Source: Clostridium sp.
GTDB taxonomy: Bacteria > Bacteroidota > Bacteroidia > Bacteroidales > Muribaculaceae
DNA: 64,000 bases
Direction of reading: 5' to 3'
Assembly: GCA_023663805.1 (NCBI GenBank)
Contig: JAMPGR010000001.1
Location: forward strand, 307,862-371,861
Below, in pieces: positions 2,888-31,227 of the stretch. The position numbers and the translations under genes are program-made. The stretch's first letter is position 1; each line of letters begins with the position of its first letter. The notes under the pieces were generated by a model that searched no databases, was not told the origin of the DNA, and was given only the letters and a program-made list of their open reading frames with translations.

Positions 2888-3984
2888 ACCCCCTGACCGA
2901 TACCGCCCCCTGGCGCGACGTCGCGACGATGCGCGCCCTGATCGACCGGATATGCCGGACGGCCACACGGCCGTGGCGCGTCATGGAGGTCTGCGGCGGA
3001 CAGACATGGACCCTCTCGCGCTATCGTCTCGAAGAACTGATCTCGCCGGCCGTCACGATGATCCACGGTCCGGGATGCCCCGTCTGCGTCACACCCGAAC
3101 AGACCGTCGACAACGCCGTCGAAATTGCCCGCCGGCCCGATGTCATCTTCTGCTCCTTCGGGGATATGCTCCGCGTTCCGGGATCGGAGAAATCTCTGTT
3201 GCAAGCCAAGGCCGACGGGGCCGACATCCGTCTGCTCTATTCTCCTCTCGAGTCGCTCCATATCGCTCTCTCAAATCCCGACAAGCAGGTCGTTTTCTTC
3301 GCCATAGGCTTCGAGACAACGACACCGCTGTATGCCCTGCTTGTCGAACGCGCCGAGACGCTCGGCGTCCGCAATCTCTCGCTGCTGACGGCTCTCTTCA
3401 CCGTCCCCGCCACCGTCGACGCGATCCTCGGCGACCCCGACTGCCGGGTCGACGCGCTGATTGCCGCCGGACATGTCTGCGCAATCACCGGCCTCGGCGA
3501 ATACGAGGAACTCGCGCGGCGCAAGGCGATTCCGGTCGTCGTCGGCGGTTTCGAGCCTGTCGACATGCTCTACGCGATCTCGAAAGCGGTCGAAATGCTC
3601 GAGCTGGGCGAGACCGGGGTCGCGAACGCCTACGGCCGCGTTGTCGCCCCGGAGGGGAACCCCGCCGAGTGCCGGCGGGTCGACCGCGTTATGGAGATCG
3701 CCGCGACGCGATGGCGCGGTATCGGCGAAATCGCCGCCAGCGGAAGGAAACTGCGCCCCGGATTCGAACATTTCGACGCCGCCGTCCGTTTCAAACTTAA
3801 GTCCTCTCAACCCGAAATCGACCGGGGCTGCATCGCTCCGCAGATTATGAAGGGACTGCGGCTGCCGACAGATTGTCCCCACTTCTGTCGCAAATGCCAT
3901 CCGACATCACCGGTCGGCGCACCGATGGTCTCGGCCGAGGGAGTCTGCGCCGCCTATTACCGCTACAAAAACGAGCAGCCATGA
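2884..3984 (+). CDS. hypD: Hydrogenase maturation factor HypD
   Basis: 366 residues with the conserved HypD motifs: CGGQTWT near residue 38, GPGCPVCVTP near residue 61, and GFETTTP near residue 140. The C-terminal cysteine cluster includes DCPHFCRKCHPTSPVG and GVCAAYY and holds a [4Fe-4S] cluster. HypD is the iron-sulfur scaffold on which cyanide ligands from HypE are placed on iron. It starts within hypC and its stop overlaps the hypE start (ATGA), which fits co-translation of a HypCDE complex. The length is normal for the family. Confidence 0.97.
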   Translation: MNPLTDTAPWRDVATMRALIDRICRTATRPWRVMEVCGGQTWTLSRYRLEELISPAVTMIHGPGCPVCVTPEQTVDNAVEIARRPDVIFCSFGDMLRVPGSEKSLLQAKADGADIRLLYSPLESLHIALSNPDKQVVFFAIGFETTTPLYALLVERAETLGVRNLSLLTALFTVPATVDAILGDPDCRVDALIAAGHVCAITGLGEYEELARRKAIPVVVGGFEPVDMLYAISKAVEMLELGETGVANAYGRVVAPEGNPAECRRVDRVMEIAATRWRGIGEIAASGRKLRPGFEHFDAAVRFKLKSSQPEIDRGCIAPQIMKGLRLPTDCPHFCRKCHPTSPVGAPMVSAEGVCAAYYRYKNEQP

Positions 3985-30970: not shown

Positions 30971-31002
30971 CAAAATTACGATAATTTTCGCAAGTTGACA
31001 AA
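30971..31002 (-). promoter_or_regulatory. Promoter of the lipoprotein-comM-purU operon, abutting the start codon
   Basis: Minus-strand TTTG (30999-31002), 20 nt spacer, TAATTTTG (30971-30978), then CGCT and the ATG at 30966. A start 5-7 nt after the -7 box would fall on or next to the A of ATG. The -33 box overlaps the T run of the upstream terminator. Confidence 0.8.
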
Positions 31003-31004
31003 AA

Positions 31005-31034
31005 AGAAGTCGCCTCCCGCAGCAGGAGGCGACT
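31005..31034 (-). terminator. Strong intrinsic terminator, minus strand
   Basis: A perfect 10-bp stem, AGTCGCCTCC (31008-31017) with GGAGGCGACT (31025-31034), and a 7-nt loop. On the minus strand it is followed by TC and a run of six T. It ends the candidate RNA, or the glycosyltransferase transcript, right at the lipoprotein promoter. Confidence 0.88.
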
Positions 31035-31070
31035 CCGATGGTCGAAAATTTAATTCTTTCTTCCGCCTGG

Positions 31071-31107
31071 TGTGTCTTTCTGTCTGTGTGTCTTTCTGTC
31101 TGTGTGT
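31071..31107 (-). repeat. Tandem 16-nt direct repeat, 2.3 copies
   Basis: On the plus strand TGTGTCTTTCTGTCTG occurs at 31071-31086 and 31087-31102, followed by TGTGT. On the minus (RNA) strand the unit is CAGACAGAAAGACACA, phase depending on start. It lies inside the closed loop of the candidate RNA. Confidence 0.9.
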
Positions 31108-31219
31108 TTGTTTATGGTCAGGCGTTATATCTGTGTATCTGAAACCCAAGGGGAAGCCTTGAATGTGTTGGTTATGACAGGGAGGTGCTCCGTCGGCAGG
31201 CGCCGACACTTTCTGTATG

Positions 31220-31227
31220 CAAAGTTA
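31220..31227 (-). promoter_or_regulatory. -7 box for the candidate RNA at 31.0-31.2 kb
   Basis: Minus-strand TAACTTTG followed by CATACAG, identical to the box before the GT2 gene at 32879-32886. No TTTG is found 19-21 nt upstream. Confidence 0.5.

Follow-up and report, generated by a model that had tools for sequence, protein, structure and literature searches.

A predicted small RNA gene with an ECF sigma-factor-type promoter in a Muribaculaceae genome

What is transcribed from the gap between a glycosyltransferase gene and a lipoprotein gene, both on the minus strand of a 64,000-nucleotide stretch of a Muribaculaceae genome (the window)? The original prediction held that the gap contains an independent structured RNA gene with its own -7 box, three small hairpins, a long-range stem closing a 49-nt loop that holds two exact copies of a 16-nt unit, and a terminator with six T residues, and that it encodes no protein. 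All of these elements were found on the minus strand within a few bases of the positions predicted for them (Table 1). The -7 box, TAACTTTG, is present and we take it to be of the sigma-ABfr type, going by general knowledge of the consensus of Bacteroides promoters. The small-RNA promoter overlaps the stop codon of the glycosyltransferase gene (31290), and the ATG of the downstream lipoprotein gene lies 34 nt past the small-RNA unit on the same strand. Directly upstream of the promoter core is a TAAC array that had gone unremarked in the original prediction and gives a stronger signal than any other part of the locus.

Table 1 Features of the small-RNA locus (window coordinates) and of a second unit in the same genome (coordinates of L204)
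Feature	Position	Strand	Basis
Whole promoter, homologue of ECF sigma-factor promoters	31293-31217	-	R1 profile match
Upstream activator-like array, GTAAC/GTAAT/TTTAAT/TTTAAC, 10-11-bp steps	31293-31260	-	Position-weight matrix
-7 box TAACTTTG	31227-31220	-	Direct sequence
Predicted small RNA of about 214 nt lacking an ATG	31214-31001	-	Promoter, terminator and no start codon; ends inferred
5' hairpin GUCGGC/GCCGAC	31207-31192	-	Fold
Second hairpin	31191-31181	-	Fold
Third hairpin	31164-31144	-	Fold
Stem CGCCTG (31124-31119)/CAGGCG (31069-31064), closing a 49-nt loop	31124-31064	-	Fold, predicted
Repeat copy 1, CACACAGACAGAAAGA	31106-31091	-	Sequence, TRF
Repeat copy 2, CACACAGACAGAAAGA	31090-31075	-	Sequence, TRF
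Intrinsic terminator: 14-pair stem (including G-U), then T6	31036-31006 (stem), 31005-31000 (T6)	-	Fold, sequence
Putative lipoprotein-gene promoter: terminator T-run as -33, TAATTTTG as -7, ATG a few bases on	31005-30966	-	Sequence, inference
Second sRNA-like unit, L204 (G000:C11:269000-275500)	3006-3088, onward to about 2880	-	R1 site

In BLASTN searches against relatives the region was matched only in its upstream part, as far as the end of the -7 box. The matched sequences were promoters of ECF sigma-factor genes, both in the same genome and in congeners. An 82-nt sequence-only profile (R1) was built from 20 aligned congeneric ECF promoters with the window site left out. Its consensus is TGTAACAAC..TGTAAC.ATTTTAAC.T.TTTTAAC, followed by an AT-rich -33 region and then GTAACTTTGCATTGT. 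R1 scored the window promoter at 44.8 bits (E 3.4e-11 when the genome was searched), and when the window alone was searched the same match had an E of 8.4e-13 and the runner-up site reached 11.2 bits. The ECF promoters themselves score 42-50 bits. A position-weight matrix of the repeat array, also made from ECF promoters, gave 35.4 bits at 31294-31259, the next best position in the window giving -3.5 bits and 5 Mb of simulated sequence of window composition a maximum of 5.7 bits. The array holds four TAAC repeats in 10-11-bp steps; direct repeats spaced by one helical turn (10-11 bp) are typical of the sites of dimeric OmpR/PhoB-type activators. The claim that the RNA has a promoter of its own is thus borne out by homology to ECF sigma-factor promoters. 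A small RNA of this ECF-type (TAAC) regulon is expected to have a promoter that fits the ECF-only profile plus a terminator at less than 250 nt and no start codon, and the window unit has both.

R1 sites with E <= 1e-6 were found in 60 of 397 genomes of the family. Outside the genus, 19 of the 20 sites inspected precede an ECF-type gene and the other meets a contig end. Of the six sites in the window genome itself, two precede ECF genes and two fall at contig ends; the others are that of the window RNA and one at a secDF-porV unit. The last (40.4 bits) heads a unit that lies between secDF and porV (PF19572), is apparently non-coding and ends in a strong terminator; it also has a 5' hairpin and AGATTGATT repeats (L204 in Table 1). 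Within the genus the R1 promoter also precedes genes for C10 peptidases with a Spi-type (inhibitor) prodomain (L144, L168, L173), one gene for a GNAT protein and one for a laminin-G protein, and in congeners it stands before terminated stretches lacking an evident gene (L145, L149, L156, L166, L163/L169). The ECF-profile promoter, the second such unit in the genome and the units in congeners make an independent small RNA gene of the ECF-sigma regulon the most likely reading. We consider it probable that the locus is an intergenic gene of this kind, about 214 nt long, whose RNA would be induced along with the ECF sigma factor and would work in trans. The independent unit of the original prediction, with promoter and terminator of its own, is supported by the ECF-type promoter homology and by the lack of an ATG.

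Two further groups of R1-type loci were seen. The same promoter precedes genes for short, degenerate-looking ECF-sigma-like proteins (L146:690-1184(+), L158 and L159), which are possibly sigma-factor mimics or decayed copies; no Pfam match was found for the L146 protein. In L174 (G018:C54) and L175 (G022:C184) an ECF gene with its terminator is followed immediately by a TAAC-array promoter. Beyond that promoter L175 has a further ECF-type gene, giving tandem sigma genes, and in L174 the contig stops too early to tell.

The RNA body was assessed by folding. The whole transcript from 31214 had a z of -4.2, and the terminator (z -5.4) and the isolated loop segment (z -5.8) are each improbable by chance. 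The terminator with its six T residues was as predicted, except that its stem has 14 pairs including G-U rather than 10 bp. All three small hairpins are present, but the first two taken together gave a z of only -1.9 and the third plus its flank was unremarkable (z -0.45). Both copies of the 16-nt unit are exact, and TRF reported a period of 16 with 2.4 copies at 100%. The tetranucleotide periodicity of the repeat is 22/28 at lag 4, the maximum among 396 background non-coding segments being 18. The CGCCTG/CAGGCG pairing expected to display the copies in a closed loop is found in the predicted fold, and CACACAGACAGAAAGA is mostly unpaired (probability 0.73-1.0 per position in the full-transcript fold), but the stem has a pair probability of only about 0.54 in the full transcript and hence competes with alternative folds. 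Display of the repeats in a closed loop is a possible structure. The 213 nt of transcript examined contain no ATG, and the unit is thus apparently non-coding, as had been claimed. A 77-aa GTG open reading frame (30976-31209) was rejected, as it extends past the terminator and has no Pfam match. The Infernal search of Rfam proposed in the original prediction did not assign the RNA to a family: none reached its gathering score, and relaxed thresholds gave weak, implausible matches only. The 6S models had no match in the window. Note that RF00013 was also silent across the whole genome and in a Bacteroides control, which marks it as a weak model for this phylum.

The original prediction had also named lack of conservation in relatives as evidence against it, and there the RNA body did poorly: BLASTN found no homologue of it among 60-61 relatives, the promoter part alone being convincing. 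The same held for phages, where BLASTN of the region gave nothing convincing beyond the promoter part. With no homologue of the body in relatives, loop and repeat stand without comparative support, the mode of action set out below is one that we infer, and the RNA could be young or non-functional. The surroundings also differ in relatives, in that the flanking genes are not syntenic, the glycosyltransferase gene has no congeneric homologue and the upstream regions of lipoprotein homologues are unrelated to that in the window. Short BLAST matches of the repeat in G032, G024 and G028 were discarded as low-complexity or coding sequence. A GACAGAAAGACAGA-type simple repeat with a terminator-like hairpin after it lies 3' of a rubrerythrin-like gene (L004, about 1490-1560, in G032:C74), and its resemblance to the window repeat is probably chance slippage. 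In a search of the whole genome for 21-nt complements with <=3 mismatches, none was found except the locus itself; the seeds of small RNAs are usually far shorter than 21 nt.

How might such a repeat act? In the original prediction the RNA was likened to CsrB-type RNAs, and by that logic it would titrate an RNA-binding protein through its two copies. The copies are identical and largely unpaired, related units have other tetranucleotide-type repeats directly before their terminators, and CsrB and RsmZ likewise repeat a motif in a loop. However, CACACAGACAGAAAGA lacks GGA and is present in only two copies, and slippage also generates low-complexity repeats. Moreover, neither CsrA (PF02599, detected in three control genomes) nor an RRM_1 protein (PF00076) had a match in the genome, which is 98% complete, so that these absences are good although not absolute. 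A CsrB-like protein sponge is disfavored because no GGA and no CsrA were found, and we regard titration of any RNA-binding protein as doubtful. Base-pairing of the repeat to mRNAs is more likely than its binding by a CsrA-like protein.

The units in congeners bear on a second alternative, which concerns the origin of the gene. In L141, L145, L149 and L156 at least two GAT[AT]GAT-type repeats stand right before the terminator, a feature of 0.6% of background segments. In G026 an ECF gene likewise has this motif plus a terminator after its stop codon, and its 3' UTR shares an identical block of 30 nt with the sRNA-like unit L156. L166 holds a GATTGGTTTA variant, as do the 3' UTRs L077 and L085. 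The GAT[AT]GAT motif was found in the 3' flank of 12/72 named ECF loci versus 5 in the control stretch, and hence it is not universal among ECF 3' flanks. As L156, L166 and L141 bear sequence like that of ECF-gene 3' UTRs, some of what such units contain may be left over from genes. No GAT[AT]GAT precedes the terminator of the window RNA, whose repeat is of the GACAGAAAGACA type; it is linked to the other units by promoter and overall layout. Near-identical ECF copies were seen within single genomes: L258-L260 (G007), L261/L262 (G005), L263/L264 (G030) and L266/L267 (G036). Their likeness begins near the promoter and ends near the stop codon, with unrelated flanks on either side, which suggests recent duplication or gene conversion. 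A mobile cassette was rejected, as no consistent target-site duplication was apparent at the copy ends.

The window unit could accordingly be read as a decayed ECF sigma cassette that kept its promoter and terminator, lost its coding part and yields a functionless transcript. The multiple near-identical ECF copies, the 30-nt block of L156 and the non-conserved body of the window RNA all fit such decay. In contrast, BLAST detects neither coding nor 3' UTR sequence of ECF genes in the window RNA, all four promoter repeats and the 14-pair terminator are intact, the 16-nt repeats are highly ordered and ATG is absent. We consider decay unlikely. A related and tentative idea, to which we give little weight, is that small RNAs have arisen from the ECF gene family, retaining its promoter and in several cases the 3' UTR motif, and form a feed-forward unit with the sigma factor. 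If true, these RNAs would mimic or titrate whatever binds the sigma mRNA and would also control genes of secreted proteases and type IX secretion, and no member would have diverged further than the window RNA.

The two remaining alternatives attach the RNA to its neighbors. It might have no start of its own and be part of a glycosyltransferase mRNA whose long 3' UTR runs up to the terminator; the strand is shared and no terminator lies between the stop codon and the unit, but the homologous promoter with its full activator array intervenes, which leaves such read-through very improbable. A 5' leader or attenuator of the lipoprotein gene, despite the shared strand and the nearby ATG, is hardly credible given the strong terminator in between, the separate -33/-7 promoter there and the lack of such a leader in the congeneric lipoprotein-gene homologues inspected. 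From its sequence the lipoprotein gene seems to be served by that separate promoter and to have almost no leader; a weak R1 match (30993-30970(-)) falls within that promoter.

Returning to an independent small RNA gene of the ECF-sigma regulon, its promoter is a near copy of that of the sigma-factor genes, and production of the RNA is thus probably coupled to that of the regulator. A putative activator, which from the repeat spacing we propose to be a dimeric OmpR/PhoB-type protein, would most likely bind the TAAC array and recruit RNA polymerase to the small-RNA gene as well as to the ECF gene. The RNA so produced would act in trans, and its exposed tandem repeat, rich in A, C and G, is the best candidate for the contact site.

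Muribaculaceae are abundant gut bacteria, and no small RNA study of the family was among the papers listed by a literature search. A promoter profile that locates sRNA-like units as well as ECF-sigma and protease genes gives a handle on the regulon and its post-transcriptional arm, and the regulon is open to testing in cultured relatives (Paramuribaculum, Duncaniella).

Among known systems, Porphyromonas gingivalis has a regulatory system, PorX/PorY, that together with the ECF sigma factor SigP controls type IX secretion genes (PMC4800418, PMC8265659). The likeness here is one of gene neighborhood, in that one R1-promoter unit adjoins porV. The paralogous small RNAs FopS and GibS of Bacteroides thetaiotaomicron consist of a single-stranded part and a terminator, and FopS is made from sigma-ABfr promoters (PMC11697453). 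Their partner RbpB has an RRM_1 domain, whereas RRM_1 proteins were not found in the window genome, so a partner of the RbpB type is disfavored for the window RNA. The latter matched no Rfam family at gathering score (the Rfam copy searched may or may not hold FopS), and it has an ECF-type promoter array of a kind that the accessible text does not report for FopS (PMC11697453). The streptococcal csRNAs are several intergenic small RNAs per genome, each having a promoter of the regulon of the response regulator CiaR, with TTTAAG-N5-TTTAAG direct repeats, followed by a terminator (PMC3091779). Their bodies are diverse, many with a 5' hairpin plus a terminator hairpin, although most have a nonamer in common, and they were predicted from an intergenic regulon promoter plus terminator; all those tested by northern blot were seen at the expected sizes (PMC3091779). 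This precedent makes transcription of the window RNA more credible and is silent on its targets. The window RNA is likewise an intergenic unit of regulon promoter plus terminator, one of several with differing bodies, although it belongs to another phylum and has four TAAC-type repeats, common to ECF sigma genes, upstream of a sigma-ABfr promoter. If the reading is true, a csRNA-like design has arisen separately in Bacteroidota.
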